Shown here: positions 14,887-30,823 of the stretch, one piece after another | Layout: each line of letters starts with the position of its first letter | Numbering within the stretch: the first letter of the stretch is position 1 | NCBI GenBank assembly: GCA_040905865.1 | Contig: JBBDQU010000085.1 | Span: 1-48,294 of the forward strand | DNA: 48,294 bases | Source: Alphaproteobacteria bacterium | GTDB lineage: Bacteria > Pseudomonadota > Alphaproteobacteria > UBA8366 > GCA-2717185 | Direction: 5' to 3' | Notes under the pieces: generated by a model | Told to the model about the DNA's origin: nothing | The model's database searches: none | Seen by the model: only the letters and a program-made list of their open reading frames with translations | Program-made: the position numbers and the translations under genes

Positions 14887-15363
14887 TCACAGGATGTCGT
14901 TATAGAACAGGTGGCGGCCGACCCAGGCCGACGGCGCATGGCCCGCCGCCCAGCGCGGCGAAACGTGGTTGGCGTGGTAATGCGTCGCCTGCCCGGTGCA
15001 GTCGCCCAGCGATCCAGCGACCGCGCGGCGCGCGATCCGCAGGCAGCATTCGAAACCGGGATCCGGCGGCACGACGAGGAGCAGCTTCGGCCAGTTGGCG
15101 TCGGTGCTGTTCCAGCAGCTGAACTGCCGCGGTTTCAGGCATATTTCCGCGACGCTGTCGCCCCACCAGTACCCGCCCTTCGCACGGGACCGCGCAAGGC
15201 GGTTCATGACCACGGCCGCGACCGCTTCCTGTCCGCGCACGGATTCGCCCCTGGCCTCGCCCCATATGGTCCGGGCCAGAAGATCCACGGCATGGGTATG
15301 GGCATGGGAATGGGCTTGGGCCGGGGCATGGACGTCCGGCACGGCCGCTGCCGCCGCCGTCAT
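14887..15363 (-). CDS. SleB-like cell wall hydrolase (phage endolysin)
   Basis: A 158-residue peptidoglycan hydrolase of the SleB/Hydrolase_2 family, probably a lysozyme-like or transglycosylase-type amidohydrolase acting on host wall at particle release. The core is LLARTIWGEARGESVRGQEAVAAVVMNRL, with the conserved GEARGE, then FSCWN and ATHYHANHVSPRWA. The N-terminus is odd: HAPAQAHSHAHTHAV, a histidine-alanine tract encoded by a short ATGGGC-type DNA repeat (15290-15330). It is the last gene of the phage cluster and overlaps the upstream membrane-protein gene by 4 bp, consistent with a lysis module. Confidence 0.9.
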   Translation of the reverse strand: MTAAAAAVPDVHAPAQAHSHAHTHAVDLLARTIWGEARGESVRGQEAVAAVVMNRLARSRAKGGYWWGDSVAEICLKPRQFSCWNSTDANWPKLLLVVPPDPGFECCLRIARRAVAGSLGDCTGQATHYHANHVSPRWAAGHAPSAWVGRHLFYNDIL

Positions 15364-15671
15364 ACCCGTTCTCCCGGCGGGGCGGTTTGCCGGTCGAGCT
15401 TGGCTTCGATGCGCTGCAGATGGAGGGTCAGGCGGCGCTCGACATCCTTCAGGCAGTCGATCGAAGCGTAGCTCCGGGCGACGTCCAGCTTGTAGGCGGC
15501 GACATTATCCCGCAGCTGCGACACGGTCTGGTCGGTATGGTGCTGGTGCGCCGTCAGGGCTGCGTCGCTTTCGCGGCGCGTCCGCCAGAGGAACCAGAAC
15601 ATGCCGCCCAGGACGGGCAGTTCGACGGCGCTTATCCAGTTGATGAGATCGATATTCCAGGCGTTCGCCAT
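15360..15671 (-). CDS. Single-pass membrane coiled-coil protein, possible holin-class lysis protein
   Basis: A 103-residue protein with one membrane segment (about 13-29, VELPVLGGMFWFLW) followed by a charged helical region of about 70 residues (LRDNVAAYKLDVARSYASID, then VERRLTLHLQRIEAKL). The start at 15671 is chosen for the GGGAG ribosome site 10 nt upstream; an in-frame ATG at 15719 lies within the terminator hairpin. It overlaps the endolysin gene by 4 bp. Its place immediately upstream of the endolysin suggests a holin or accessory lysis role, but one membrane segment plus coiled coil is not diagnostic. Confidence 0.65.
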   Translation of the reverse strand: MANAWNIDLINWISAVELPVLGGMFWFLWRTRRESDAALTAHQHHTDQTVSQLRDNVAAYKLDVARSYASIDCLKDVERRLTLHLQRIEAKLDRQTAPPGERV

Positions 15672-15720
15672 GGATGGGTACTCCCTGTCAGGCGCGCCGG
15701 ACCGGCGCGTTGTGAACATG

Positions 15721-15741
15721 AAAAAGCCGCCCGGAGGCGGC
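15721..15741 (-). terminator. Intrinsic terminator between secreted-protein and lysis genes
   Basis: On the minus strand a GCCGCC/GGCGGC stem (plus-strand positions 15726-15731 and 15736-15741) with a 4-nt loop is followed by five T. It lies 42 bp after the stop of the 16079 gene and before the membrane-protein gene. Confidence 0.7.
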
Positions 15742-15782
15742 GTGGTGCCTTGCGAATTCGGGTTTCCGGTATCGGCTATCCG

Positions 15783-16079
15783 TCAGGCGTCCCTTCCGGG
15801 GATGCGAACCGGCTGCCACCCCGTGCCGGAAGCGACGAGGCAGGCCGGGCCGCCCGGAAGCGTCACCAGGATCGTCCAGCTTCCGGAACCGGATACGAAG
15901 ATTTCCATCAGCGCGCCGGCCGACGTCACCGCCTCGATGCTGCGGTGTTCGCCAAACTGCCGTTCCAGCCCGGCAACGAATCCGTCCCGGTCGCCGCACA
16001 ATGCCCGACCGGCCGCCGGTCCCGGCAGGGCCATGCCGGCCGCCGCGACGGCGATTGCCGCCATGATCGCGTTTCGCAT
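15783..16079 (-). CDS. Small secreted protein of unknown function
   Basis: A 98-residue protein with a clear signal peptide (MRNAIMAAIAVAAAGMALPGPAAG, cleavage near AAG-RA). The mature part has two cysteines (LCGDRD, PACLVAS), which could form a disulphide, and an end reading WTILVTLPGGPACLVASGTGW. This is a familiar small periplasmic domain in alphaproteobacteria without known function. A good ribosome site (AAGGAGA) precedes the start. It sits between the terminase and the lysis genes and may be a carried (moron) gene rather than a particle part. Confidence 0.72.
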   Translation of the reverse strand: MRNAIMAAIAVAAAGMALPGPAAGRALCGDRDGFVAGLERQFGEHRSIEAVTSAGALMEIFVSGSGSWTILVTLPGGPACLVASGTGWQPVRIPGRDA

Positions 16080-16105
16080 TCTCTGTCTCCTTGCTGTGTC
16101 GATAT

Positions 16106-17635
16106 TCAGACGTCGAAAGCCGTCTCGGCTGCGATAACGCCCGGATGGCCGCGCCAGGACGGGCGGTTCACCGCGGGCAAACGGGGCAGCCGAACCGGCT
16201 CCGACGACAGGCAGCCGCTCACCGCGTCCAGCCCGTCATCCGGTCCCCGGTATTCGCCGCCCGGCCGCCATTCGCGCATTTCAGTGATGAAGGACGTATC
16301 CCACACCGACCGGTGGGCGTGCAGGCCGCCCGCCGCCAGGACGGCATCGAATCCTTCCAGGATTCGCCGTTCCTTGGGGATGTGGTTCGTCACGGGCAGC
16401 ACCGCGCATCCGATTCCGGTCGCCGTCATTTCCTGGCGCAGCAGGCCGGGCAGGAATTTGCCGACGCCATTGGATTCAACCTGGACCGACGGCACATGGT
16501 AGCGGCCCGCGAACGCCGCGACCTGCCGGCATTGCTGGATCGCCTCATTGTCCTCCACGTCGGGATCGACGGTCAGGTACTGAACCCGGTGCAGCCAGTA
16601 TCCGCCTTCGGCATCGGTGAACACCACGGCAATCACGCTGCCGTCGCCCTTTCCCGGCGCGCCATAGGCAGGATCCCACCAGCAGCTGGCGGATACCAGG
16701 CGTCGCCCGTCCAGCGTCAGGGTCGCGATCCGGTTGCGTTCCGCGTATTCCAGATCCGCGTCATAGGGGCGGATGCGGTCGGGGTCGAGCCGCCCCGCCG
16801 CGATATTCACCGGCTGCAGCATCATCTGGCTGGCGAACTTGTTCGGCCCGTGCCGGCGCTGCAGCGCCGCGATATGGTCCGCATCGAACCGTTCGGGCCA
16901 GAGGCTGCGGCCATCGGAATCGCGGACCGGCAGCGCCAGCCGCGTGAACCCGTCCAGGAACGGCGCGGTTTCGCCCGCTTCGGCCCGCGCCGCATCGGCA
17001 TAAATCGTGTAGTAACTGTGCGGCGTGCCGGCATAGAGCTGGAATCCGCCCGGCATCAGGATATAGTCGATTTCCGACAGCCGCGCCCGCAGGTCGGCCC
17101 GCTTGGGCGCCGTGTCGCTGGTATTCGGCACCTCGACATCGTCGCAGATCACGAAATCGGCGCGGCTGCCGGTGACGTTCGCGCCGATGCCGCGCGCCAG
17201 CATGGACGGATCGCGCAGTTCCGACGGGCGGTTGACCGTAAACTGCCCGGCGCCCCACTGATCCGCCCGGGCCGGGCGCAGGTGCCACGCCAGTTCATGG
17301 CGTTCGATGATCCGCTTCACATTGCGGACCAGCTTTTTCGCCAGGTCGAGTTCCGCCCCCAGCACGAGAATGCGCAGGTCGGGCCTTACCAGCAGCAGCC
17401 AGACGCAGAACAGGCCCAGCATCGTGGACTTGCCGCTGGACCGGAACGCCAGCATCAGCAGGCGCCGGTCACCGCCGCGCCAGCGCGCCTCCAGCCAGCG
17501 GGCCATGCGGATATGCAGGGCGGGCGTATCCTCTCCCTGGGTCCGGTTCCACAGCCAGACGAATTCGGGAAACGGCGTTTCGCGCGCGGCGGCGGAATTC
17601 ACCGTCGGCGCGTTGTCACTCTTCATCGGCGGCAT
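16106..17635 (-). CDS. terL: Phage terminase large subunit
   Basis: The DNA-packaging motor and nuclease, acting at the portal vertex. It has 509 residues. Walker A is LAFRSSGKST at about 62-71; Walker B with the catalytic acidic pair is ADFVICDDVE at about 149-158. The motor coupling segment QLYAGTPHSYY follows. The C-terminal RNase H-like nuclease domain begins with the conserved aspartate in SCWWDPAYGAPGKGDGS and continues with VQVESNGVGK and DDGLDAVSG. All catalytic motifs look intact. It overlaps the upstream putative small subunit by 20 bp (or 11 bp from an alternative ATG at 17626). Confidence 0.95.
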   Translation of the reverse strand: MPPMKSDNAPTVNSAAARETPFPEFVWLWNRTQGEDTPALHIRMARWLEARWRGGDRRLLMLAFRSSGKSTMLGLFCVWLLLVRPDLRILVLGAELDLAKKLVRNVKRIIERHELAWHLRPARADQWGAGQFTVNRPSELRDPSMLARGIGANVTGSRADFVICDDVEVPNTSDTAPKRADLRARLSEIDYILMPGGFQLYAGTPHSYYTIYADAARAEAGETAPFLDGFTRLALPVRDSDGRSLWPERFDADHIAALQRRHGPNKFASQMMLQPVNIAAGRLDPDRIRPYDADLEYAERNRIATLTLDGRRLVSASCWWDPAYGAPGKGDGSVIAVVFTDAEGGYWLHRVQYLTVDPDVEDNEAIQQCRQVAAFAGRYHVPSVQVESNGVGKFLPGLLRQEMTATGIGCAVLPVTNHIPKERRILEGFDAVLAAGGLHAHRSVWDTSFITEMREWRPGGEYRGPDDGLDAVSGCLSSEPVRLPRLPAVNRPSWRGHPGVIAAETAFDV

Positions 17636-17942
17636 AGCGGGAAACGGCGTCGCGGGCAGCCGCCATCATGTCCGGCCCCGCGCCGCCGCCATCCGCCGGC
17701 GTATCCGCACCCGCCGCCGACCACCAGTGCACGAGTTTCGCCAGCGCCGCGATATGTCCGACCATCGTCTTCCCCGCCGCATGCCGGGCGGCGAGGTCCC
17801 GGGCGTCGATGGCGATGCCGGCGCCGTTATCGTCGGCCTTCGCCGGAACGGGCGTGGCGGCAAAAGCGGCATAATCCGAAACCGCCAGACGAAGCGCTTC
17901 GGACAACGATTCCTTCAGGGCGCAGTCACTGCCAAATTTCAT
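17616..17942 (-). CDS. Putative terminase small subunit
   Basis: A 108-residue, largely helical protein directly upstream of and overlapping terL, which is where the small terminase (DNA-recognition) subunit is expected. The segment ALRLAVSDYAAFAATPVPAK and the helix ARDLAARHAAGKTMVGHIAALAKLVHWWS are the only notable stretches; no helix-turn-helix can be asserted. The functional call rests on position and size. A strong terminator ends only 21 bp before its start, so its expression needs read-through. Confidence 0.55.
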   Translation of the reverse strand: MKFGSDCALKESLSEALRLAVSDYAAFAATPVPAKADDNGAGIAIDARDLAARHAAGKTMVGHIAALAKLVHWWSAAGADTPADGGGAGPDMMAAARDAVSRYAADEE

Positions 17943-17962
17943 CTTTCCCTCACGATAGACAT

Positions 17963-17986
17963 AAAAAAAACCGCCCTGAGGCGGCT
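17963..17986 (-). terminator. Strong intrinsic terminator after the tail/esterase genes
   Basis: On the minus strand the stem CCGCC/GGCGG (plus 17971-17975 and 17980-17984) with a 4-nt loop is followed by eight T, the clearest rho-independent signal in the cluster. It ends transcription from the esterase gene while lying immediately before terS-terL, with no visible promoter in between. Confidence 0.85.
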
Positions 17987-18073
17987 AACAGATCACGGTG
18001 GCAGGTTTACAATTATGGGGTCAGATGCCGACCGATCGTATTAGTTCCTGGTACCATTCCTCAAAATTGGCAA

Positions 18074-18907
18074 TCATTCCGCTTGTCTAACGGTAATTGC
18101 CTCGAACCACATCTCGGCATGACGATCCAGACCGGCCGCATTCATATGGCAGCCATCGAATCGCATATCCATGCCGATTTTATCCGTATCTGGGCCAGGG
18201 TAAATTCCTAGAAAAGGGTCGGAAACCGACATCTGGATAGCACGAATGTCTTCATTGGAAGGACCTCCACAACGGGTTGCAATTGCAACGTAAATTGGCG
18301 CGCGGAATTTTAATTGTCGCAGATTCGTAACGATTGCATGAAACTGACGCCTATATTCTTCTGGTGCAGTTCCTGCGCCCGCATCTGCCTCGCCAAGGTG
18401 AAAGAGAACATGACTAACTGATAACGCTTTCTGTCGTAGATTCTCTGCTACAACATATAACCTTTCATGTAGATTCCCTTTCGGAGCCCAATCCCTAATG
18501 TAAGATGCTCCAACACTCAATGGAACTAGAATAACGCGTTTGAATTTTCCACGTGCAACTAAACTATCACCAAGTCGTGACAGAAAACTGCCCCCAATAC
18601 CAGACGTGCCCAATAGAGGGTCGTGCGCTAAATAGCAATTCCCGTCGATATAATTAAAGTTTAATACATTACTATTAGCTTTGTATCGACCTTCTCCTTC
18701 GTTCGTTGAATTAGATTGGCCAAAAACCAAAATTACGGCGGTATTTATATCTTTTCCACAATCTACTTTTGACTTGGCTCGAGTATCATGGAAGACACGT
18801 TGTGATATTCTCTCAAGTTCAATTTCCTGATAGATAAACGGCGCGGCAACCGCCACGGCAATAAAGGGTAATAATAGGTATATTGTTAAAATTCTTAACC
18901 AAGTCAT
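18074..18907 (-). CDS. AT-rich SGNH/sialate-O-acetylesterase-like hydrolase
   Basis: A 277-residue protein with an N-terminal membrane or signal segment (about 4-24) and an SGNH-type esterase fold. Block I is ILVFGQSNSTNEG (nucleophile serine in GQSN, as in the sialate O-acetylesterase family), an intermediate block is HLGEADAG, and the catalytic Asp/His block is FDGCHMNAAG. It is markedly richer in A+T than every neighbouring gene, as is the distal part of the adjacent tail gene, suggesting recent transfer. It lies after the tail-fibre genes, so removal of acetyl groups from surface polysaccharide (as a moron altering the host, or during adsorption) is plausible. The substrate cannot be read from sequence. 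Confidence 0.75.
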   Translation of the reverse strand: MTWLRILTIYLLLPFIAVAVAAPFIYQEIELERISQRVFHDTRAKSKVDCGKDINTAVILVFGQSNSTNEGEGRYKANSNVLNFNYIDGNCYLAHDPLLGTSGIGGSFLSRLGDSLVARGKFKRVILVPLSVGASYIRDWAPKGNLHERLYVVAENLRQKALSVSHVLFHLGEADAGAGTAPEEYRRQFHAIVTNLRQLKFRAPIYVAIATRCGGPSNEDIRAIQMSVSDPFLGIYPGPDTDKIGMDMRFDGCHMNAAGLDRHAEMWFEAITVRQAE

Positions 18908-18937: not shown

Positions 18938-19825
18938 CTAAACTACACCCAATAACCGTACCGTACCGCTAGCAACATTTCCACTGACGAAAGATAACCG
19001 AAAACCATTTATTATTGATCCAGTATTGAACTGAGCGCCGATTTCTCCCGTCGCCATTCCGCCGTCGGCGCGGATATAAGTGCATTCTCCACGCACTACT
19101 TTATTCAGGGATGAGTTCTGGGTATTGATTATACGTACAGTAAACCATAGCCCCTCGTTTTCATCATTCCCTACCTTACCTGCTGCAGTATTGTTGCCAA
19201 TCAAAATTTGATTTACGCCACTACCGAATGTTGTCGATTGACTACCACTCTGGAATCCATAATGTCCAAAAAATTGATACCCCGTTTCGAACGTCGCGCC
19301 ACCGTCATCCGAGAATTGCAGGCCGAGTTGCACATCATCCGTCGCCGGCTGCAGGAATCCCGTCAGGATATATTCGTCATAGGTCGCATCGATACCGGTG
19401 ACGAAGTCCAGCGTGGCGTCATCTGACGCGGTTTTTTCCTCGATCAGCTCGGTTGTGCCGGCCGGCCGCCTGGTGGTGCGCGGCGATATGACGTGCCAGC
19501 CGGCGCCCGCCCGGCGCAGCAGAACCGTGTGGTTCGATGAGTCGAGGGTAATGTCGTCGCCATGGAGGGTCGTGATATTACCCGTGCCATGCCTTACGAC
19601 AACGGTCCGCGTATCATGCGCCGTGTGGATCAGCACCAGCCCGCCATCCGGAACGGATCCGGCGTGGATTGTATCCAGGTCGTCGCCGGCCGCCGCCCCT
19701 TCCGTATCGACCGCGTGGGTGTTTTCGCTCAGCGCGATCGCGCCCGATGCAATGGTCAGCACCGGGCCGGCCTGCTGCCCTGGCGCCATCGCAAGAATAT
19801 CCCTGTCCGGTTTTGTCAACGTCAT
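18938..19825 (-). CDS. Putative tail-fibre-associated protein
   Basis: A 295-residue protein with a phage-tail-like N-terminal domain (LTIASGAIALSENTHAVDTEG, then DDLDTIHAG and VVVRHGTGNITTLHGDDI). The C-terminal half looks like a beta-sandwich binding domain (LDFVTGIDATYDEYILTGF, then LGLQFSDDGGATFETGYQF). This suggests a receptor-binding or carbohydrate-binding role. The last 120 codons are AT-rich like the esterase gene, while the first half matches the cluster, pointing to a mosaic gene with an exchanged tip. It overlaps the previous gene by 4 bp (ATGA). No family name is certain. Confidence 0.68.
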   Translation of the reverse strand: MTLTKPDRDILAMAPGQQAGPVLTIASGAIALSENTHAVDTEGAAAGDDLDTIHAGSVPDGGLVLIHTAHDTRTVVVRHGTGNITTLHGDDITLDSSNHTVLLRRAGAGWHVISPRTTRRPAGTTELIEEKTASDDATLDFVTGIDATYDEYILTGFLQPATDDVQLGLQFSDDGGATFETGYQFFGHYGFQSGSQSTTFGSGVNQILIGNNTAAGKVGNDENEGLWFTVRIINTQNSSLNKVVRGECTYIRADGGMATGEIGAQFNTGSIINGFRLSFVSGNVASGTVRLLGVV

Positions 19826-20103
19826 GATCGGCTACCTCGCCTGTTGATGATGGCCGCGCGGGCGGCGGCGCGCTCGGCGGCGGAAATATTCGCCCGGTTT
19901 TCAAGCGCCTGAATCACGACCTCCCTGTCGCCCGGTTCGGGCGGCAAGGGCGGCGCGGCAACCGCCGGGATGTTACCGGCCGCGATCCAGGCCCGGACCG
20001 TTCTGAAGTGGCGGTTCGCAGGGTCCGCCGGGATCACCATTGTCCCGTTGACGATGAAGCCGCCTTCGGCGCGGTTCCGTACCGATTCAATTTTCATGTT
20101 CAT
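19822..20103 (-). CDS. Small tail accessory protein
   Basis: A 93-residue protein linked by ATGA overlaps to the tail fibre upstream and the tail-associated gene downstream. It begins MNMKIESVRNRAEGGFIVNG and has NRHFRTVRAWIAAGNIPAVA, a proline-rich linker, and an alanine-rich helical end. Similar short proteins follow tail-fibre genes in many phages, where they act as structural accessories or chaperones. Function is inferred from position. Confidence 0.62.
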   Translation of the reverse strand: MNMKIESVRNRAEGGFIVNGTMVIPADPANRHFRTVRAWIAAGNIPAVAAPPLPPEPGDREVVIQALENRANISAAERAAARAAIINRRGSRS

Positions 20104-21941
20104 AACTCCGCGTCAAAGGACCAGATCGGCGACGTCTGGTTCCACATGCCCGGCCGGGACGTCACCAGGGTGGAAAACCCGTCCAGCCGCATGATGCCGC
20201 CCTTTTCCGTGAACCCGTATATCGCCGTAACCGAACTGCCGCCGCTGGTGCCGCCGACATTGAAGTCGTTGAAGTTCGGCGTGGTATCCAGCAGGAAGAC
20301 GGTCGGTACGGCGCGCATCGGCACCGGAAACAGGACCATCGTCGCGACATCCGTCGCGGAGATAGCCCAGGCGCTGGCGGCGTTGGACAACCGGGCGTAA
20401 TACCGTTGGCACATTGCCAGTTCCACCGGCGCCGGGCGCCATTCGAAGGGCGTCGCGACGCTGCCGGGTTCGAGCTGGACCTGCGCCAGGTCGACCGTCA
20501 TTGTCGTTCCGGTGGGCAGCATCAGTTCAATTGCCAGGAAATGCCCGGCGCCAAGCGTCTTTCCGGCAATGCCGGCGGGCGCGAAGCTGCGGGTGAATTT
20601 CTGCCAGCCCGACGTCAGGTTGCAGGCCGGCAGGGTTGCCGTTACATCGCCCGAACCGCCGGATCCGAAATCCTGCCGCCAGCGTGGCGTGACTGTCCGC
20701 GGCGCATCCGCCCTCGCCCAGAAACTCAGGGTGCATGTCTGCGCCGCGAGGGTCCGGACGTCCTCGATACGTTGAAACAGGAAGAGTTCTGTTGCCGTTC
20801 CGGCCGTGGTCTGGTTCCAGCGGTAATGGAATTCCGGCTCACCCGGGACATCCGTCTGGCCGGGTGCGAAGGCTTCCCGGCTGATCGTCAGGGCGATGCC
20901 GGACGGCGACAGGTATCCTGTTCCCCAGCGGTCCAGGGTCTCGCTCGGGTCTGTCGGCGGCGTCGGAAAGCTTGTCCCGCGCTGGGCGATCCGGAAATCG
21001 CCATTCATGATCCGGTTGCGAAAACCGGCAAGGGGGCCGCCGTTCAGACCGTCGACCGAGACGCCATCCATCGTGCCGCCGCTGATCATGGCGCCGGACA
21101 ACCCGTCATCGGGAATTTCGGCAATGTCCGAGATCAGGCCGACAAACCCGATGAATGTCACTTCGATATTGCCGCTTCCCGGCGGCGGCGCCCCGGAAAA
21201 TGTCAGCGTCATGCCGGATGCCGCATAGCTGTTCGTATGCTGCTTGATGCCGTCAATCGTGACCGCGACCGATGTGCTGTCCAGCACCGACCGGTCCAGC
21301 AGGAATACGGTTGTCGCGCCGTCGCCGGAAAGCGACTGCACCGGAACAGCCGTGTTGATCGCATAGTTTACCTGCTGCTGGATCGCGGCCAGGCTGGCCA
21401 ATGCCGAATCGGCGCTGGCCGCAGCCTCGGACGCGCTGCCGGCGGCGAGACTCGCGGCCTCCGATGACGCGCTGCCGACGGTCGGCAACCCCGTTTCGTC
21501 GAAGGCCAGGACCCTGCCCGCCCGGTCCGAAGCGCTCGGCAGGGTAAGCGTGGCCTCCAGGTCGTACAGCGGCTTGTGCAGGCTGTCCGCGACGAGCATC
21601 TCCGCCTGCTGCAGCAGCATCGCCATCCGGTCCAGTTCCTCGTTGATGACGGCGGCCCGGAAATCCCCGGCTTCCTGGAAATCCGTTTCGCGGGCGAAGG
21701 CCATGTCGCGATAGATCGTCACCCTGGTATCCGCCGGCGGGGGCAGTTCGAAAATGACGTCGCCGCCGCTGCTGGCGCCGACCCCGGTGACGCTGTTCGC
21801 GCCGGCTGCTTCGTTGTCGTCGAAAACGACGACCAGATCGGCCTGGTCGATGATCGGGAACGGATAGGGAAACACCGTCTGCACCCCGTCCGCCACATAC
21901 TGCACCCGGGGACGGACATCGCTGATGATGAGTTCAGCCAT
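20100..21941 (-). CDS. T7-type tail fibre protein
   Basis: A 613-residue tail fibre. The N-terminus (VQYVADGVQTVFPYPFPI, then LVVVFDDNE, VTIYRDMAFARETDF and ELDRMAMLLQQ) is the T7 gp17-like domain that attaches the fibre to the tail. An alanine/serine-rich shaft follows (SSEAASLAAGSASEAAASAD, about 155-190). The distal part begins with RNRIMNGDFRIAQRGTSF, a common start of the C-terminal domain in phage fibres, and continues as beta-rich sequence to residue 613. It should recognise the cell surface. It starts 23 bp after the preceding gene's stop. Confidence 0.9.
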   Translation of the reverse strand: MAELIISDVRPRVQYVADGVQTVFPYPFPIIDQADLVVVFDDNEAAGANSVTGVGASSGGDVIFELPPPADTRVTIYRDMAFARETDFQEAGDFRAAVINEELDRMAMLLQQAEMLVADSLHKPLYDLEATLTLPSASDRAGRVLAFDETGLPTVGSASSEAASLAAGSASEAAASADSALASLAAIQQQVNYAINTAVPVQSLSGDGATTVFLLDRSVLDSTSVAVTIDGIKQHTNSYAASGMTLTFSGAPPPGSGNIEVTFIGFVGLISDIAEIPDDGLSGAMISGGTMDGVSVDGLNGGPLAGFRNRIMNGDFRIAQRGTSFPTPPTDPSETLDRWGTGYLSPSGIALTISREAFAPGQTDVPGEPEFHYRWNQTTAGTATELFLFQRIEDVRTLAAQTCTLSFWARADAPRTVTPRWRQDFGSGGSGDVTATLPACNLTSGWQKFTRSFAPAGIAGKTLGAGHFLAIELMLPTGTTMTVDLAQVQLEPGSVATPFEWRPAPVELAMCQRYYARLSNAASAWAISATDVATMVLFPVPMRAVPTVFLLDTTPNFNDFNVGGTSGGSSVTAIYGFTEKGGIMRLDGFSTLVTSRPGMWNQTSPIWSFDAEL

Positions 21942-21964: not shown

Positions 21965-22408
21965 TTATTTCTTTGGTTTCTTTTCGCCGAACCATTCCGG
22001 CCCATGCTGCCCAAGACCGTACATGGCCTGGCCGAACAGATAGTCGGCCGGCGCCAGCAGGTTCTTCCGGCGTTGACTGGCCGCTGCCTGCCGCAACCCC
22101 TGCAGTTGCAGGGTGTCCAGGCGATTTCGGTCAAATCGATCGTGCGCTGAGCGTTTCGAAAGACCACGGAGAACGGCTGCGGCCGAACCGGCGCCCGATG
22201 ACGTCCCGGCAGCGCCGAACAGGGCGCGACGGGTTGCCTTGTCTTTGTGCAGTTTTTCCGCGTGCCGCCGGTCGGCGATTTCTCGCTCCGCCGCCATATT
22301 CCGTTCCTGCAGCGTCTGCTGCGCCGCCAGTTCCCTGTTCTTGGCTCGTGCTTCCTGCGCCGTGCGCAGGAAGGTCAGACCGGCGATCAACGCTTCCGTT
22401 CCGCCCAT
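21965..22408 (-). CDS. Small helical virion protein, possible gp14-like internal protein
   Basis: A 147-residue alanine/arginine-rich helical protein (LRTAQEARAKNRELAAQQTL, then RNMAAEREIADRRHAEKLHKDK), with a glycine/serine patch GAAGTSSGAGSAAAVLRGL. It lies between the tail nozzle and fibre genes. In T7-like phages that position is held by gp13-gp16, and its composition resembles small internal virion (ejection) proteins. No large gp15/gp16-like genes follow. The role is inferred from order and composition. Confidence 0.6.
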   Translation of the reverse strand: MGGTEALIAGLTFLRTAQEARAKNRELAAQQTLQERNMAAEREIADRRHAEKLHKDKATRRALFGAAGTSSGAGSAAAVLRGLSKRSAHDRFDRNRLDTLQLQGLRQAAASQRRKNLLAPADYLFGQAMYGLGQHGPEWFGEKKPKK

Positions 22409-24353: not shown

Positions 24354-24922
24354 TCGCTGCGCACCTCTATCAGGCTGAAGTCTTCAAATCGCGGCGGCAC
24401 GTCCTGTTGCGCATCGACCAGCCGCGCCCGGCGGATCTCCTCTTCGGCCAGGCGGCTCAGAACGTCGGCGCGACTGGTGCTTTCGGTCAGGGGCAGAACG
24501 AATTCCGCCGCCAGCCGCGCGATCAGCACCTGGTCGAAATAGGGCGGGGTTTCCGATTCCTGGGGCCGGAAGACATAGGTGAGCACGACATCTTCGGCGT
24601 TGGTATGAAGGCGGCGTTCCGCAATGCGGTATATAGCGCCGCGGCCGCGACCGGATTGCCCCGCCGACAGCGCCCGCAGGAAATCGCCAGGCAGCTGATA
24701 GGCATAATCGTAATCCGCCGTCGGAGTGGCGTTCAGGCGCGCCAGGCGACGCTGCGCCGTGGCGAAGCTCCACGGATAGGCCGATAGCACTGCATCGCGT
24801 GTGGATGCATATAACGTGCCCGCGATCAGGCTTTCGGCCGTCCCTTCCTCGAAGCCGGAAATCGGGCTTGCGCCGAGCTTCAATAATGCACGGCTGCACA
24901 GGGCGATACTGCTGAGCGCCAT
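24350..24922 (-). CDS. Tail tubular protein A / head-tail adaptor
   Basis: A 190-residue gp11-like adaptor that would join the portal to the nozzle. Family landmarks are the N-terminal ALCSRALLKLGASPISGFEE, then TRDAVLSAYPWSFATAQRRL, YAYQLPGDFLRAL and YFDQVLIARLAAEFVLPLT. The length is close to T7 gp11. It follows the hairpin at 24958-24984 and is coupled to the nozzle gene by an ATGA overlap. Confidence 0.9.
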   Translation of the reverse strand: MALSSIALCSRALLKLGASPISGFEEGTAESLIAGTLYASTRDAVLSAYPWSFATAQRRLARLNATPTADYDYAYQLPGDFLRALSAGQSGRGRGAIYRIAERRLHTNAEDVVLTYVFRPQESETPPYFDQVLIARLAAEFVLPLTESTSRADVLSRLAEEEIRRARLVDAQQDVPPRFEDFSLIEVRSE

Positions 24923-24957
24923 TGGTTAAGTCTCCCGTGAAGGATTGACAAAAGGAA

Positions 24958-24984
24958 CGCCCCGCGGAGTTTGCCCGCGGGGCG
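24958..24984 (-). terminator. GC-rich hairpin after the capsid genes
   Basis: A perfect 10-bp stem (24958-24967 with 24975-24984) and a 7-nt loop lie between the capsid neighbour gene and the tail adaptor. On the minus strand it is followed by TTCCTTTTG, a weak T tract, so partial termination is likely. T7 has its partial terminator at the same place, just after the capsid gene. Confidence 0.65.
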
Positions 24985-25029
24985 CGACGGTCGAAGCCGT
25001 TTGTTGTTTGGATCAGATGGTGGTTCGCA

Positions 25030-25299
25030 CTAATCCGTGTCGACCGCGCCAAAGGCGCTAAGGTCGGCGACATCGACCACGCCGGCGTCATTCGCGTTGA
25101 CGACGAACAGGCCGTGCGCCGGCGTACCGTCGGTATCGGCATTCGCCAATACCATGTCGCCGACGCGCAGCATGCCTTCCGCCGGGTTAAAATAACCGGC
25201 GCTGTCAACGACGGCGGCGGTATCGACGGTGGTGTAATGCCACAGCGTAAAACCGTTGGCATAGGCGAGGACACTCAGATTTTTCGAGTTGAAGGCCAT
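25030..25299 (-). CDS. Small capsid-adjacent phage protein
   Basis: An 89-residue protein with LSVLAYANGFTLWHYTTVDT, then AGYFNPAEGMLRVGDMVLAN and a beta-rich end. Short proteins with this WHY-type segment and VGD motif are commonly found next to capsid genes and may decorate the head, but the function is not established. It follows the capsid gene by 15 bp. Confidence 0.72.
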   Translation of the reverse strand: MAFNSKNLSVLAYANGFTLWHYTTVDTAAVVDSAGYFNPAEGMLRVGDMVLANADTDGTPAHGLFVVNANDAGVVDVADLSAFGAVDTD

Positions 25300-25314: not shown

Positions 25315-26157
25315 CTACGCTTCGCTGCAGCGCATGCGGACGATGCCCGTCGTATCGATCAGGCAGGCCCCCTGGCTCATCATGTTGCTGACGAAATGCG
25401 CCGCGCGATCGCCATGCCAGGTGATGTCCGATTCGACGTCGGCGCCGCTGGCATGGCCGATTGCGGTCTTGTGGTACCAGTAGCAGTACCGCAGGTCGCC
25501 ACTCTTGGTCAGACCGGAATGGGGCATCCAGAGCGTCCCCAGCCAGCGCTTTGCCTGGGTCCCTTTCCACGGCAGGTCCTCCTCGCCGATATAGTCGGCA
25601 TTGGAGAATTCTTCGATATCGAGCAGATCGCTCCACTGCTTCCAGCCGATGATGGCGTAGCGGTCGCCATCGTCGGTCACATCGGCATCGCCGAGCATTT
25701 CGAAGGCGAGCAGCGCCTTCTGCTTGGTCAGCCCATCGGAATCGGTGAGGCCGGTGCCGACGCCTTTTGCTTCCTGGCCGGTGCCCAGCGAATCGAGCTG
25801 GGTAATGACCAGTTCGTCGGTCTTGCGGCCCAGCGCATAGGCGCCAGCATTGGCGACGACCATGCGCTCGTCGATATCCATCTTGAGTTCGTCGAGTTTG
25901 TCCACCCAGTCGCCGGCATAGTAATCGGCGAGCTGGCATTCTATCGGCGTGTGGTCGACATTCATGACCGGCACCTTGCCGTGCCGCGCCTTGGTCGAGG
26001 CCGCGCCCTTTCCCACCTTCTGGAAGGTGGTCGAGGAGCCTTTCACGTTGTTCTTGCCGCGAATTGTGTTGCGCAGCTTCGAACCGACACGCTGATAGGC
26101 TTCGTGGACCTCGGACTGGAACATCTTGCTGAACGCCAGTTCAACGGAAGTCGACAT
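25315..26157 (-). CDS. Major capsid protein
   Basis: A 280-residue capsid protein of the podovirus type. Supporting stretches are VELAFSKMFQSEVHEAYQRV, then TIRGKNNVKGSSTTFQKVGK, HTPIECQLADYYAGDWVDK, AYALGRKTDELVITQLDSL and GDRYAIIGWKQWSDLLDIEEF. Its place after the scaffold genes and before the tail adaptor agrees. It has a strong ribosome site (AAGGAG, 9 nt before the ATG) at the end of a long leader running from the promoter at 26600-26628. Confidence 0.9.
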   Translation of the reverse strand: MSTSVELAFSKMFQSEVHEAYQRVGSKLRNTIRGKNNVKGSSTTFQKVGKGAASTKARHGKVPVMNVDHTPIECQLADYYAGDWVDKLDELKMDIDERMVVANAGAYALGRKTDELVITQLDSLGTGQEAKGVGTGLTDSDGLTKQKALLAFEMLGDADVTDDGDRYAIIGWKQWSDLLDIEEFSNADYIGEEDLPWKGTQAKRWLGTLWMPHSGLTKSGDLRYCYWYHKTAIGHASGADVESDITWHGDRAAHFVSNMMSQGACLIDTTGIVRMRCSEA

Positions 26158-26594: not shown

Positions 26595-26599
26595 AAAGT

Positions 26600-26628
26600 A
26601 ATATAAGGAATAAAATCCTTTATGTCAA
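26600..26628 (-). promoter_or_regulatory. Consensus promoter with operator-like palindrome (capsid leader)
   Basis: On the minus strand: TTGACA (26628-26623), a 17-nt spacer, and TATATT (26605-26600). The spacer holds AAGGATTTTATTCCTT (26605-26620), an imperfect 16-bp palindrome like the one at 30025-30040. Downstream is TTATCAACGCC, also found after the promoter at 30030-30058. Transcription should start near 26594. Confidence 0.75.
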
Positions 26629-26670: not shown

Positions 26671-27006
26671 TCAGCCGCCCTCTCCGGGATAAAGCTGTCG
26701 GAAACCGCCCGCCACCCTTGCGACATGCGCGGGGTCGCGGTCGCGCCAGTAGCGGGGATCCCGCATCATGCCGCGCAGTTCGGTTTCCGCGCCGGCGGAA
26801 TCCGGCGAGGGGCCGGGAGTGCCGGCGGCCGCCTCATCGCCTTCGGTCAGCGGCGCGAGGATGTCCCACATCTGCTCGCCGAACGCCTTTGCGAACAGCG
26901 CCGCGACGCGGGGCGTAATGACGTCATCCAGTTCCTGGAGTTCGTCCGCGGTCAGGTTTTCCGTTAGCGCCGCTGCAATTTGCGGCACGACATTTTCATC
27001 ATACAT
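26671..27006 (-). CDS. Small protein sharing the scaffold protein's C-terminal module
   Basis: A 111-residue acidic protein. Its N-terminal part is helical (YDENVVPQIAAALTENLTAD, then ELDDVITPRVAALFAKAFGEQ) and a linker (GDEAAAGTPGPSPDSAG) leads to a C-terminal module LRGMMRDPRYWRDRDPAHVA, ending GGFRQLYPGEGG. The same module ends the adjacent scaffold protein, and the two DNA copies share 21 identical bases. In scaffold proteins the C-terminus contacts the capsid, so this may be a second, small scaffold or assembly factor arising by partial duplication. Function inferred. Confidence 0.7.
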   Translation of the reverse strand: MYDENVVPQIAAALTENLTADELQELDDVITPRVAALFAKAFGEQMWDILAPLTEGDEAAAGTPGPSPDSAGAETELRGMMRDPRYWRDRDPAHVARVAGGFRQLYPGEGG

Positions 27007-27058
27007 ATTTCTGTCTCCTTCGCATTTCGGGTTTCGCGGATGCCGTTCACGGGCGGTT

Positions 27059-27841
27059 TCAGGAACCGCCGGGATACAGCCGGTTGAATCCTTCGCTGAC
27101 CCGGCGAATCACCGATTCGTCGCGGTCGCGCCAGTAGCGCGGGTCACGGATCATCCGCCGCAACGACGCCTCATCGATATGTTCCGCCGCGCCGGCGCCG
27201 CGCAGCACACCGGGTTCTTCGGCGTGCATCAGGCGATGCAGCGACAACACGCCGTCATAGGTCGACGACAGCGAATCGTACACATCGGTCGGAAGGTGGC
27301 GCTTGCCCCAGACGCGCAACTGCCGGCGCATTTCTGCCCAGCGTTCATTGCCGCCGAAATGCCGGGCCAAGCGGGTTTCCTCAAATTCAGCGTCATGGTC
27401 GGTTGCGGCCGCCGACATGACCGGCGTCAGGACATGGGCCGCCAGGTCGTAGACGAGTTGCGCCTGTTCCGTGGTGAATCCGGCATCCTGCAACAGATCG
27501 TCCAGTTCCGGTGCAGGTTCGAACAGCCCGTGGCTCGTGTCGATTTCGTAAAGACCGTGGCCGGGCAATTCCGTGTCGATCGGCCCGGCAGCCAGGGCAT
27601 GGTCCGCTCCGGTTTCCGCTTCGTCCATCCGGGCGGAGAACCGGCGTTCGAGTTCAGCATAGGACTTTGCGAGCATTTCGACCCGGACGGTCCCCGTGTC
27701 GGCATCCCAGAATTTTCCGGGTACGAAATCGGGCCGCGCGTATCCGGACCCGATTGGCGGTTCAGGGGTCACGGCCTCGCTCACGGCGCCGCCCGCGCCG
27801 GGCTCATCGCCTTGGTCCGGGGATATGTCGTCTGACATCAT
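27059..27841 (-). CDS. Capsid assembly scaffolding protein
   Basis: A 260-residue acidic, largely helical protein in the T7 gp9 position (after portal, before capsid). The N-terminus is proline/glycine-rich; the segment PDFVPGKFWDADTGTVRVEM followed by LAKSYAELERRFSAR is typical of podovirus scaffolds. The C-terminus is LRRMIRDPRYWRDRDESVI, then FNRLYPGGS. The start at 27841 is set by AAGGAGG ending 5 nt upstream. That ribosome site overlaps the stop codon of the Bbp19-like gene, so an ATG at 27856 and longer extensions are unlikely. Confidence 0.85.
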   Translation of the reverse strand: MMSDDISPDQGDEPGAGGAVSEAVTPEPPIGSGYARPDFVPGKFWDADTGTVRVEMLAKSYAELERRFSARMDEAETGADHALAAGPIDTELPGHGLYEIDTSHGLFEPAPELDDLLQDAGFTTEQAQLVYDLAAHVLTPVMSAAATDHDAEFEETRLARHFGGNERWAEMRRQLRVWGKRHLPTDVYDSLSSTYDGVLSLHRLMHAEEPGVLRGAGAAEHIDEASLRRMIRDPRYWRDRDESVIRRVSEGFNRLYPGGS

Positions 27842-27852
27842 TGTGTCCTCCT

Positions 27853-28122
27853 TCATGTCAATCGGTTCCGGCCCCGCGCGATCATCGCGCCGATCTGGAT
27901 CACGAGGTGCCGTTGCCCTTCCAGGTGACGCAGTGCCGAATCGCTTGCGTCGGGGCCCAGGACCCTGTCGGTTGTCATCGCGCGAAGCTGCGCCAGAACG
28001 CTGTCGCCATCCGGGCCGGAAAAACACCGCGCGAAGCTTTTTTCGATTTCCGATGACGGGGCGTTGTCCGATGGTCCCTCCGGATTTTCGAACCACCGCC
28101 AGCCCGAACCCGGGTCAGCCAT
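27853..28122 (-). CDS. Bbp19-like phage protein
   Basis: An 89-residue protein with the pattern FARCFSGPDGDSVLAQLRAM, then LGPDASDSALRHLEGQRHLV. These are features of the Bbp19-like family named from Bordetella phage BPP-1 and common beside podovirus portal genes. The role is unknown, probably in head assembly. It overlaps the portal gene by 8 bp and ends 11 bp before the scaffold start. Confidence 0.82.
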   Translation of the reverse strand: MADPGSGWRWFENPEGPSDNAPSSEIEKSFARCFSGPDGDSVLAQLRAMTTDRVLGPDASDSALRHLEGQRHLVIQIGAMIARGRNRLT

Positions 28123-29659
28123 CGAACGGGCCTCCCGCTATCTGTTGCAAGGCGCCCGCTGGCGGGGATTCGGCTATCCGGTCCGGCGGGTTTTCAGCGA
28201 CCTCCTTCCGGATCAGCGTTTCCGGCAGGTTGAACGATCGGGCGATCCAGCGCGCGGTTTTCGGGACATCGAGAACGCCCAGGGCCTCTGGACCGAAGGC
28301 CTGGATTGCTTCCAGCCAGAGCAGCACGCCCTGCGCATCCTGCCGTTTCTGGTTCTGCGCCAGCGGTGACAGATACTGAATTTCGACGCTCCGGCCATCC
28401 ACCGTGACGTCGTCGATTTCGCCGCGGCGGCGCAGGATCGCGAGACCGCGTTCCACGACCGGCGTCAGCAGTTCCGATTGCAGCCGGCCATAGGTCGCGC
28501 CAAGAATCCGGGATATCTCGGCGGATCGTTCCAGCACTTCGGTTGCCGTCATCCGGGGACTGTCCGGCGGCGCCAGCCGGTCGGCCAGGAGGGCGTGGCG
28601 TATCCGGCCGCGCAGGTCTTCCAGAACGAGCTGCGATACGTCGAACCGGCCGGGCGCCTCCAGCGGCGTAAGACCCTTGGAACCGACAGCTTTGGGAATG
28701 ATCGTACCGGGAACCAGTTTGACCGTAGCCGGGTTCAACACGCCGTCGTCATCCGCCTGCCAAATGCCGGAAACGGCGATGGTCGCATTCTTGAGAATCA
28801 GCTCGACAACCTTGTTGGCGGTCTTGATATCCGGCAGGGCCTTCATCACCGGGGAACGCCCGTATATTTCGCCGGGCGCCTTGAGCCACCGGAAATTGAT
28901 GAAGGGCGACCGGGCAAACCGCCCCGATGAGAGCAGCACGGGAAGAACAGACGAGCCCCCGGCGCCTTCGAGCATTGCCTGGTAAAGGTAGCCGCCGTTT
29001 TCCTGCGGGGTAACGGATTCGACGATGGCGTGCCGGGCTTCGTTCCCGGTGCGATCATCTTTACCGATATCGACCGGCAGGATCGTCTTCGGGAACCGGG
29101 TCCGAAGGTCAGCGACTGTCATTTCGGTCCGCCGGAATGTTGAATCGAGTCTGCCGTCCAGCCGTTCCTCGAAGGCCAGTTCGCCCAGTGGCACGGCCAT
29201 GAAGCGGAATGCGCTCGGTTCGCCGGGCGCCGCTTCCTCGAACAGAAGGGACGCCGTCCCCACCGTAATGAGGTCGAGAAATGCCTGGTGAACTTCAACG
29301 TTGAAGTTCGAACGGTCGAAATGCGTCTGCAATACGGCGGCAACATGCTCCAGCGGCTCACCGAGAACGCTGCGATCCTCTTCGGCGAGGTCGCCGCCGC
29401 CCGCGAGGCCGAACCAGCGTGACCAGGGCGGCGTCAACTGGGCGACAAGACTGGCGGCCAGTTGATCGACCGCGTCCGCGGCTGTCGCATCGAACAGACG
29501 ATCAGCGGTTCTGGAGGACGTTTCCGCGCCGGCAAGAACGCCTTCGCGTTGCGGCAGCGCGTATTCGTAACATTGCCGCCACAGGTTTTCCCAGGTATCG
29601 CGCCGGGTTCTGGCGCGCCGGTACCGGGTGGCGATGGCGTCCGGCGAATTCTGGTCCAT
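28115..29659 (-). CDS. Portal (head-tail connector) protein
   Basis: A 514-residue T7 gp8-like portal that would form the dodecameric DNA channel. Features include the N-terminal WENLWRQCYEYALPQREG, RLFDATAADAVDQLAASLVAQLTPPWSRWF (given as two joined pieces of one segment near residue 55-85), the SPFINFRWLKAPGEIYGRSP loop region, and MTATEVLERSAEISRILGA with YGRLQSELLTPVVERGLAIL near the end. The start at 29659 is chosen because the preceding gene stops at 29664; an upstream ATG at 29800 would add arginine-rich sequence antisense in character. Confidence 0.92.
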   Translation of the reverse strand: MDQNSPDAIATRYRRARTRRDTWENLWRQCYEYALPQREGVLAGAETSSRTADRLFDATAADAVDQLAASLVAQLTPPWSRWFGLAGGGDLAEEDRSVLGEPLEHVAAVLQTHFDRSNFNVEVHQAFLDLITVGTASLLFEEAAPGEPSAFRFMAVPLGELAFEERLDGRLDSTFRRTEMTVADLRTRFPKTILPVDIGKDDRTGNEARHAIVESVTPQENGGYLYQAMLEGAGGSSVLPVLLSSGRFARSPFINFRWLKAPGEIYGRSPVMKALPDIKTANKVVELILKNATIAVSGIWQADDDGVLNPATVKLVPGTIIPKAVGSKGLTPLEAPGRFDVSQLVLEDLRGRIRHALLADRLAPPDSPRMTATEVLERSAEISRILGATYGRLQSELLTPVVERGLAILRRRGEIDDVTVDGRSVEIQYLSPLAQNQKRQDAQGVLLWLEAIQAFGPEALGVLDVPKTARWIARSFNLPETLIRKEVAENPPDRIAESPPAGALQQIAGGPFDG

Positions 29660-29663
29660 CCGG

Positions 29664-29870
29664 TTATTCTCCCAGCAAGGATTTCTGACGGCCCGCATTC
29701 GCATGCGGCTGCAGAACGCCGCGGAACGAGGTCGCGATCGTGCCCAGGCGACCCCGGCGCTGGCGTTCCAGCTGTTCCTTTCGGTCCTTCGCCGCCTCAC
29801 CCTCCAGGTCTGGAGGCGGCGGGGGTGGTGGGGGTGGCGGTGGTGACGGTGCGCTGAATAGTCCGCCCAT
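29664..29870 (-). CDS. Small proline-rich phage protein
   Basis: A 68-residue protein: MGGLFSAPS, then a run of eleven prolines, a charged helix (AAKDRKEQLERQRRGRLGTI) and a short end. It lies immediately upstream of the portal gene (2-bp spacing region before the portal ATG). Similar short proteins precede portal genes in alphaproteobacterial prophages. The proline codons form a G/T-rich plus-strand repeat (29813-29850) that could slip. Function unknown. Confidence 0.68.
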   Translation of the reverse strand: MGGLFSAPSPPPPPPPPPPPDLEGEAAKDRKEQLERQRRGRLGTIATSFRGVLQPHANAGRQKSLLGE

Positions 29871-29968
29871 GACGGATTCTCCCTTCGTTACGGATTGCCT
29901 GATTCACATCGGTGTTGGTTGGATCGCCGGAGGCGATTCTCACCAAACACGATCTGATCGAATGAAAA

Positions 29969-29995
29969 CGCCCCGCACGTGATACGCGCGGGGCG
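29969..29995 (-). terminator. Intrinsic terminator / possible attenuator
   Basis: An 8-bp perfect stem (29969-29976 with 29988-29995), 11-nt loop, followed on the minus strand by TTTTCATT. It lies after the 30024-30461 gene and also about 30 nt after the predicted start of transcripts from the promoter at 30030-30058, so that promoter's RNA would meet it at once. Confidence 0.7.
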
Positions 29996-30023
29996 GCGAC
30001 AAGCGGTTCTGTGGCGTTGATAA

Positions 30024-30461
30024 CTAGGATGTATATCCTATTTCACCGCCCATGTCAATTATTTTCATGTTTTGTTCTCGTAAAAAACGACACAGATGCC
30101 ATGGCGTGAGGATCGAGCGCCGATGGATGCCCAGAACGCGCTTTACCGCCTCCACACAGGTAAACGGCCCCCACGGGGCAGGCCTGCGTTGTTCCCGCGA
30201 TACAACCGCCGGCAACACGGTAAATCCCATCTGCCGCATCCATCCGGCAATGTCCTGGCCGTCATTTGCCGGGGTAATGGATATCTCCGTCCTGTCCGAA
30301 AGCGGCTCGTAAAGGATCCAGCAACCGTTGCGCCGCATTGCGAGAAAGCAGTGACGGAAGCCCGGCTTCAGGACCCTCAGCCAAGGCAGGTCGGCGCGAC
30401 CGCTGAAAATGACATAGGCGCGCTCCGGTTCGGCAGGTCCGGCATCAATCGTCTGTTTCAT
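30024..30461 (-). CDS. Conserved phage-cluster protein of unknown function
   Basis: A 145-residue protein with YVIFSGRADLPWLRVLKPGF followed by RHCFLAM, then PWGPFTCVEAVKRVLGI and ILTPWHLCRFLRE. The spacing of a conserved histidine-cysteine pair (RHCF) and a later PFTCVEAVK cysteine suggests a cysteine-protease-like or transglutaminase-like fold, but this is a guess. Start at 30461 by the ATGA overlap with the upstream gene; a start at 30518 would overlap by 60 bp. It belongs to the first transcript of the cluster. Its 3' end carries the promoter at 30030-30058. Confidence 0.78.
   Translation of the reverse strand: MKQTIDAGPAEPERAYVIFSGRADLPWLRVLKPGFRHCFLAMRRNGCWILYEPLSDRTEISITPANDGQDIAGWMRQMGFTVLPAVVSREQRRPAPWGPFTCVEAVKRVLGIHRRSILTPWHLCRFLREQNMKIIDMGGEIGYTS
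30030..30058 (-). promoter_or_regulatory. Promoter with overlapping operator-like palindrome (portal operon)
   Basis: On the minus strand: TTGACA (30058-30053), a 17-nt spacer and TATACA (30035-30030). The palindrome TAGGATGTATATCCTA (plus 30025-30040) covers the -10 box. TTATCAACGCC follows, as at the capsid-leader promoter. The promoter lies inside the end of the preceding gene. Confidence 0.7.
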
Positions 30462-30823
30462 ATCACGATTCCCCGTTCCCGCAAGGGCGCCGTCATGGAA
30501 TCGAGCGCCTCGTCCCATAGTCTGGCGTCCTGAAATTCGCGCTGCCGCCTTGAATCCGGCGCTGCGCAGCGCCGGCCATAGCGAACCAGAACGGATACAT
30601 GTCGATTGCTGAGGCGCCGTTCCCGGTTCATGCGGGATACCACGCTCATGACATCGACCGGTTCGCAGGGACGCGGTGTTTCACCCTGACCGGCGACGAT
30701 TTTGGCGCCGTCATATCGCGCGACCGTTGCCTGAACCGACCACAACCACGCATCTTCAACTGAGTCAAATGGCGTACCATCCAGCGTCGACACGGGCCTG
30801 GGACAGTATCTTTCATGCCGCAT
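30458..30823 (-). CDS. Conserved phage-cluster protein, first gene of the operon
   Basis: A 121-residue basic protein. The stretch DSVEDAWLWSVQATVARYDG followed by AKIVAGQGETPRPCEPVDV, and later RLWDEALDSMTAPLRERGIV, recalls a conserved alphaproteobacterial family of unknown function often found in prophage-like clusters. It is the first minus-strand gene after the divergent regulator; the ribosome site AAAGGAA lies just upstream of the ATG and the promoter at 30883-30910 faces it. It is coupled to the next gene by ATGA. Confidence 0.75.
   Translation of the reverse strand: MRHERYCPRPVSTLDGTPFDSVEDAWLWSVQATVARYDGAKIVAGQGETPRPCEPVDVMSVVSRMNRERRLSNRHVSVLVRYGRRCAAPDSRRQREFQDARLWDEALDSMTAPLRERGIVI

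Follow-up and report, generated by a model that had tools for sequence, protein, structure and literature searches.

The stretch of DNA analysed here, called the window, comprises 48,294 nucleotides of contig JBBDQU010000085.1 from an alphaproteobacterial genome (G000, family f1), and between positions 14887 and 30823 it holds a cluster of phage-type particle genes, the subject of this report. The cluster is a T7-type head, short-tail, packaging and lysis module of ~16 kb with 20 genes, all on the minus strand. All 20 frames are open and tightly packed, with spacings of -20 to 513 nt between neighbouring genes. An earlier reading of the letters alone (the sequence-only reading) had described ~16 kb of intact frames on one strand in T7 gene order, a description confirmed by the open frames and by matches in PHROGs, Pfam and NCBIfam.

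The operon begins with g121 (30458..30823), a candidate Q-like antiterminator (AlphaFold2 model with a mean predicted local distance difference test score of 88.5; own profile in 25 of 40 loci), followed by g164 (30024..30461), a conserved protein of 145 aa and phage origin, whose own profile matches 37 of 40 loci. The predicted fold of g164 resembles uncharacterised phage proteins, and comparison with the PDB gave no E below 0.001 and no Z of 5 or more; Pfam scans of g121 and g164 family members gave nothing above the cut-off. A conserved 68-aa protein (29664..29870; phrog_831, E 6e-8), which is additional to the gene list of the sequence-only reading and was found in 25 of the 37 loci searched, two of them phages, immediately precedes the portal, or head-tail connector (28115..29665; PF12236, E 3e-136). 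Next come scaffold A, a capsid assembly protein (27059..27838; PF05396, E 9e-9), and scaffold B, a second scaffold-like protein (26671..27006; PF05396, E 6e-4, below the cut-off), which is a separate copy in the seven f3 loci read; a shared scaffold duplication was not proved by the scaffold-motif regular expression, which was too strict. The first half of the operon closes with the major capsid protein (25315..26157; PF19821, E 4e-78; phrog_3437), the adjoining 89-aa g89 (25030..25299; phrog_18004, E 4e-21), the gp11-type tail adaptor (24350..24922; phrog_394, E 2e-46) and the gp12-type tail nozzle (22449..24353; phrog_376, E 3e-153).

In the second half, a 147-aa protein placed after the nozzle, in the gp14 position (21965..22408; own profile in 24 of 40 loci), precedes the tail fibre (20100..21941; phrog_4492, E 1e-67; PF03906 slightly below the cut-off). 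Three variable genes fill the interval between fibre and terminase: a 93-aa protein (19822..20103; weak match to phrog_20370, E 0.0035), a 295-aa protein (18938..19825; phrog_14820, E 4e-18) and an acetylesterase-type gene (18074..18907; PF03629, E 1e-13). At 43.6% GC, compared with ~64% for the cluster, the esterase gene is likely a recent insert. A gene that from its position would encode the small terminase subunit (TerS-like; 17616..17942; own profile in 16 of 40 loci) overlaps that of the T7-type large subunit, TerL (16106..17635; termin_lrg_T7, NF033889, E 9e-131; phrog_38), whose GKST and CDD motifs are invariant across 14 aligned relatives. The operon ends with the 98-aa g98 (15783..16079; phrog_25396, E 3e-18), a small protein that its position marks as holin-like (15360..15719; phrog_29007, a family of unknown function, E 6e-29) and that adjoins the lysin in relatives too, and a SleB-type cell-wall hydrolase, the putative endolysin (14887..15363; PF07486, E 2e-19; phrog_938).

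The flanks named by the sequence-only reading, pyrD and a host-type regulator, are upheld. At the lysis end lies pyrD (13733..14785, minus strand), a recurring neighbour, and divergent from g121 stands an S24-family, LexA/CI-like regulator (30972..31604, plus strand; PF00717, E 1e-24). Strong S24 matches occur in 28 of 59 relatives, 12 of the 28 being without a strong TerL; its presence in genomes that lack the cluster identifies S24 as a host gene, and the idea that it is a component of the element was rejected. The absences that had been noted also hold: PHROGs scans of all 20 cluster proteins gave no integrase, replication, polymerase, primase, RNA polymerase or gp15/gp16-type match, and the longest word common to both cluster flanks is 10 bases, within the 10-13 bases seen in shuffles, so that attachment (att) repeats as a trace of integration were rejected as not above chance.

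The divergent control region (30824..30971) contains a candidate g121 promoter, TTGACA-16-TATATT (30910-30883, minus strand), adjoined by TTATCCTA repeats. A candidate capsid promoter, TTGACA-17-TATATT (26600..26628, minus strand; 11 of 12 consensus matches), contains AAGGATTTTATTCCTT. Terminator-like hairpins on the minus strand lie between g164 and the portal gene (29969..29995; 12-bp stem with 10 G-C, then TTTT) and after capsid and g89 (24957..24985; 12-bp stem with 10 G-C). Hairpins recur in the homologous gap after g89 in 10 of 38 cases (0.7 expected) and, modestly, after g164 in 4 of 31 (0.45 expected), these and the motif counts below treating related genomes as independent. The hexamer TAGGAA is present in 26 of 45 homologous S24 upstream regions, with 4.3 expected from mononucleotide shuffles (two near-duplicates dropped, genomes without the cluster included). 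GTTC-N7-GTTC, the SOS box of Alphaproteobacteria, has exact copies in 7 of 36 carrier regions (0.24 expected) and copies with at most one mismatch in 24 (5.7 expected). Upstream of the capsid gene, 3 of 8 f3 genomes have an exact copy (0.19 expected); the window has no exact copy. A scan of capsid promoters found half-sites near TTGAC in 4 of 42 regions (0.4 expected, at most 3 in shuffles), the window not among them under this rule.

The Ser/Lys pair of S24 is kept in 17 of 21 aligned proteins, 13 of them with an A-G site and the window and three kin with T-G. The pair is lost in L330, L354, L366 and L369, two of which are f3 members, and self-cleavage may have been lost with it. DNA damage is a plausible trigger for the group and an uncertain one for the window. 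For g121, the four top rows of the structural comparison are all phage Q21 antiterminator, with Z of 5.8-6.6 across 90-96 residues as against 2.8 for the next row; Z values below 8 may stem from a common arrangement, Foldseek by itself gave no significant result and there was no sequence match, and the Q-like assignment is a candidate and a lead. Control of the CtrA type, with TTAA-N7-TTAA taken as its site, was rejected: there are 4 sites in all, compared with 2.8 expected, and one with a single mismatch lies inside the esterase gene. The only exact one, at 32096-32110, is outside the cluster, just ahead of a 139-aa gene adjoining lysS.

The sequence-only reading had proposed comparing the pyrD-to-lysS interval across related genomes, and the site does recur across families with its S24 and pyrD flanks. 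The order lysS, S24, g121, g164, portal and so on to TerL, holin, lysin, pyrD and an EAL gene is found, whole or mostly, in families f101, f55, f32, f97 and f131 besides f1, and also in named loci such as L103, L109 and L114. In a sample of 38 loci (37 of the 59 carriers described below, plus G008), 22 are readable at the S24 end, and 16 of these have a divergent S24 no more than 1.5 kb away; the pyrD end is visible in 24, and in 11 of them pyrD lies at most 5 kb from the cluster. Five loci have both neighbours. The 80 named loci include 15 with pyrD inside the 5-kb limit, out of 67 readable there, 10 with S24 inside the 1.5-kb limit and 4 with both. The S24 end is kept in most loci where it is visible, the pyrD end in a minority. 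Outside the carriers, three genomes of other families without the cluster (G043, G045, G051) have S24 and pyrD 0.5-0.6 kb apart, and in two f2 genomes (G019, G028) the distance is ~5 kb, with no cluster gene matched between.

In the sister family f3, strong TerL matches occur in 10 of 14 genomes, and the cluster is divided. All seven genomes read at the S24 side have S24, g164, portal and the two scaffolds there, without the capsid gene; capsid to lysin form a separate locus in 6 of 7 (the G023 contig stops after TerL), and in 5 of 7 the same 20-kb stretch also holds pyrD. The distance between the two parts is ~0.24 Mb in G017 and 1.23 Mb in G020, and the f3 set could therefore not be packaged whole by a phage-sized particle.

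Closer to the window, the cluster is incomplete in several genomes. In its own genus, G003 preserves a piece of g121 on one side and, on the other, the holin end together with lysin and pyrD. G001 is without the genes from capsid to fibre and without the N-terminal 192 residues of TerL, and in G002 the contig ends within g121. In its family, G004 has a decayed g121 ahead of pyrD, and in G006 the stretch from capsid through most of the nozzle is missing. The remnants in G001, G003, G004 and G006 look like scars of loss. Many relatives are draft genomes (G001 in 540 contigs, G006 in 650), and draft assembly can mimic deletions. Patchy presence with empty sites in close relatives had been named beforehand as evidence against domestication: patchiness was indeed found in the window's family, through loss, but the two near relatives in which the whole interval is readable carry scars instead of clean empty sites.

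When 385 alphaproteobacterial genomes were searched for the capsid protein, 90 matched, 59 with an identity of at least 54% and 31 with no more than 34%, with none between; this clear gap sets the 31, which are of prophage level, off from the 59 carriers. The capsid gene is uninterrupted and near full length in 56 of the 59, the remainder being G242 and G057, with stops, and G383, which is partial. TerL matches were found in 18 of 59 relatives, 16 of them strong, the window's own genome counted. A TerL profile search in named genomes gave 527 loci, 80 of which were kept for analysis; these include Magnetospirillum, Paramagnetospirillum, Telmatospirillum, Skermanella, Caenispirillum, Terasakiella, Roseospirillum, Rhodospira, Rhodovibrio, Marivibrio and Pacificispira. 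Carriers that can be cultured are Magnetospirillum fulvum, M. molischianum, Telmatospirillum sp. J64-1, Caenispirillum and Skermanella. In a phylum-wide sample 12 of 398 genomes matched, 7 strongly, all Alphaproteobacteria, and 5 weakly, 4 of these from other classes. Family f72 includes three near-complete 0.9-Mb genomes with a rearranged cluster (L322, L323 and L324 in G110, G229 and G399), and its retention in genomes so reduced is surprising.

Selection was measured by the ratio of nonsynonymous to synonymous substitution rates (dN/dS; NG86 method, 16 pairs, some not close, with pieces under 50 residues dropped and medians taken over dS under 2). Median values are 0.043 for capsid (12 comparisons), 0.057 for the adaptor (12), 0.065 for the portal (8), 0.093 for the nozzle (12), 0.094 for TerL (14), 0.145 for the fibre (11) and 0.25 for the lysin (9), and for the host flanks 0.138 for pyrD (6) and 0.08 for lysS (3); the highest single value, 0.52, belongs to the fibre. 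Judging from these ratios, the cluster genes are under purifying selection as strong as that on the host flanks, and the test that had been suggested for terL, portal and capsid points to upkeep, not neutral decay. Capsid and TerL distances track those of RpoB (Mantel r 0.59 and 0.53, p 0.0005, 27 genomes; three of the 30 chosen, G316, G088 and G124, lacked a protein), and the f97, f101 and f133 pairs are recovered in the capsid, TerL and RpoB trees. Two f55 loci, L299 and L300 (G311 and G216), have a TerL 48% identical to the window's and far from that of their f55 kin; this TerL may have been exchanged. On this evidence descent appears to have been mostly, not wholly, vertical.

A free phage was rejected as an explanation of the cluster, the best named full phage being the Pelagibacter phage Hodr, at 46% capsid identity; plasmids gave no capsid match. 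Hodr and the Vibrio phage K411 (31% capsid identity), both T7-like, have portal, scaffold, capsid, adaptor and nozzle in the window's order, and K411 also has a g164 relative, sited between terL and portal, that was matched in 32 of 156 sequences from cluster loci (a set that includes overlapping stretches from some genomes). They differ from the window in being free phages, with genomes of 34.2 and 32.5 kb that encode large proteins downstream of the nozzle; the set in the window occupies 16 kb of a chromosome and has no such proteins. The three large post-nozzle proteins of K411, one of which is phrog_342 (internal virion protein), found no match in the 156 sequences, and seven Hodr proteins gave one marginal, fibre-like match. 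A 5-kb unannotated 'Bacteriophage sp.' record from human faeces (L294, MT838907.1) is closer: portal, scaffold, capsid, g89, adaptor and nozzle stand in the window's order, all at 51-60% identity (60% for capsid) except the scaffold, at ~35%.

A genome-wide search of 28 carriers found phrog_342 matches in all, and outside G036 none of these extends past position 359 of the 1235-position profile. Since 7 of 14 controls also match, E. coli and B. subtilis included, the short matches are read as a common transglycosylase domain. A long match was found in G036 only, and none in the window's genome. In G036 it lies a few kb from a separate prophage-type (T7-type) terL (C11:347372-355559); the idea that ejection proteins are encoded elsewhere in carrier genomes was consequently rejected. 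The cluster and a separate prophage-type terL with an internal virion protein form a contrast inside that one genome.

Because the site is conserved across families, the genes are under purifying selection, no integrase or att repeat was found and losses have left scars, the cluster is very probably a domesticated podovirus, and the candidate status it was given by the sequence-only reading, as a domesticated podovirus or gene transfer agent (GTA)-like system, is supported on all four counts. Gene transfer is the probable job of the domesticated cluster, and an ancient domesticated podovirus-type GTA is, on the sequence evidence, the likely and best reading. A fuller version stands at somewhat better than even: an independent, ancient lineage of T7-type, short-tailed GTAs across much of the Alphaproteobacteria, in lineages without RcGTA, controlled by a LexA-like host regulator and a Q-type antiterminator, which would have shed its ejection proteins and rely on the recipients' own competence machinery.

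Several points weigh against the GTA reading. The system is known here from its genes alone, and T7-type ejection proteins were not found, which leaves delivery unexplained. A T7-type head could hold all 16 kb, and the window's set would thus not be too big to be packaged whole. Deletions and scars in the window's genus and family mean that the cluster is being lost there and is therefore dispensable; the capsid gene of G057 is broken, spread over two contigs (C9:264897-265559 and C14:10963-11175) with two in-frame stops, a decayed copy. In most loci pyrD no longer adjoins the cluster. Only 6 of 24 splits of the capsid tree and 9 of 24 of the TerL tree are shared with RpoB, and f55 is not a single clade in either. 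Of 9 genomes lacking an intact cluster, 1 has an exact GTTC-N7-GTTC box and 4 have a near-exact one, and for that reason the boxes may serve S24 alone, as its own site. Lastly, integrases occur in 5 of 10 longer IMG/VR records, in one directly beside the capsid gene: a tyrosine recombinase match adjoins it in G785 (46263-46715; record of L228), and in G784 (record of L227) one lies ~20 kb away.

The last of these points belongs to a rival explanation, an ordinary or decaying prophage lineage that integrated repeatedly at one place or lingers as a remnant, which appears improbable. It would fit the deletions in the window's genus and family, the listing of relatives as viral in IMG/VR (246 stretches related to the window's TerL, besides the integrases) and the presence in the family member G005 of a prophage-like set (L334, C8:212000-231900), whose capsid is ~50-51% identical and its other genes near 30%, and which is probably a prophage of a related phage group. 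Yet the integrase and terminal attachment repeats that mark an integrated functional prophage were not found at the window, the f3 set is split far apart, and selection matches that on the host flanks in strength; decay would not leave intact capsid genes across families, and two of the IMG/VR recombinases used as queries, from two of the four integrase loci, had no match in the 156 locus sequences. A domesticated short-tailed particle with another use (killing, controlled altruistic lysis, phage interference or a capsid source for satellites) is unlikely too, if less so. Such a use would accommodate the failure to find T7-type ejection proteins beside a conserved capsid, portal and tail, the weaker constraint on fibre and lysin than on head genes (median dN/dS 0.15 and 0.25) and the low-GC esterase gene between fibre and terL. 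Against it stand the kept TerL motifs and the TerL dN/dS of 0.09, for a DNA-free particle would not need TerL, and the absence of the cluster where RcGTA is present, which is consistent with a shared job.

Under the preferred GTA reading, a T7-type particle locus would have entered an alphaproteobacterial ancestor between the host S24 regulator and pyrD, and would since have been inherited mostly vertically and kept up by purifying selection. S24 would hold the g121 promoter off, and in some lineages the capsid promoter too, through TTCCTA/GTTC-type sites until stress, whereupon g121, as a possible Q-like antiterminator, would let RNA polymerase read through the long operon. Proheads would assemble and be filled by TerL with chromosomal DNA, with no preference for their own locus, and the holin-like protein and the lysin would open the cell. 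The short tail might carry the DNA into the recipient's periplasm. In the absence of trans-envelope ejection proteins, uptake from there would require the recipient's own competence proteins.

If the reading is true, phages of different types have been domesticated as vehicles for DNA no fewer than three times among Alphaproteobacteria (RcGTA, BaGTA and this cluster), and some viral-database entries, such as those among the 246 IMG/VR stretches, may be host-owned loci. How DNA might be delivered by a particle with a short tail and no ejection proteins would then be a direct question. Since no genome in the 385-genome sample has both the cluster and the RcGTA marker, what GTAs are for could be tested by comparison, in culturable relatives.

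The window shares its head, tail and terminase genes with T7-like podophages, and differs from them in that no replication or transcription genes or internal virion proteins were seen among the cluster proteins scanned. The internal core is described in a preprint as essential for delivery in Peru-2 and T7-like phages (PMC13320782). GTAs are defined as caudoviricete-derived particles that carry mostly random host DNA to other cells, are endogenized, often at several loci, cannot fully package their own genome and are mostly inherited vertically, co-diversifying with their hosts (PMC9662315). By homology, the T7-type portal, capsid, scaffold, adaptor, nozzle and TerL are caudoviricete-derived particle proteins, and full endogenization is seen in the lack of any integrase or att repeat found, the recurring site and the two loci in 7 of 7 f3 genomes. 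Co-diversification has the recurring site, the scars and the Mantel correlations on its side and the small number of splits shared with RpoB and the failure of f55 to form one clade against it.

RcGTA is siphovirus-like. Like RcGTA and CcGTA, the window has a compact phage-derived particle locus, mostly single-copy and apparently mostly vertical, without integration or replication genes; unlike RcGTA, its TerL, portal, capsid and tail are all T7-type. The RcGTA marker GTA_TIM (PF13547) is absent from G000 and, although present in 36 of the 385 genomes, occurs in no carrier among the 59, against 5.5 expected (Fisher p 0.0018, with no correction for kinship). The GafA/GafZ regulator family DUF6456 (PF20057) is likewise absent from G000 and was found in 3 of 39 relatives, none a strong TerL carrier. 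Membership of the RcGTA family was rejected on these grounds. Two carrier genera, Magnetospirillum and Skermanella, belong to the Rhodospirillales and Azospirillales, respectively. In a survey of 1,423 alphaproteobacterial genomes, RcGTA-like clusters number zero in Rhodospirillales (24 genomes) and Azospirillales (13), and the same holds for Kiloniellales (5), Oceanibaculales (2) and Thalassobaculales (1) (PMC6821227). Control of CcGTA combines activation with antitermination through GafZ, which is reported as unlike known antiterminators (PMC11150451).

A literature search with most subscription papers outside its scope found, among the papers listed, no report of a podovirus-type GTA in Alphaproteobacteria. 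In Azospirillum lipoferum, 10-kb particles are suspected GTAs, for which a different gene region was proposed (PMC3899980). The nearest published claim is FpGTA of Faecalibacterium, whose genes lie in two operons (PMC12946183); compared by description only, it differs from the window in its host, a Gram-positive gut bacterium. BaGTA, the type II GTA, also compared by description only, is restricted to Bartonella in the published scheme, and this sets it apart from the cluster, which it would resemble as a second, independent alphaproteobacterial GTA (PMC9662315).

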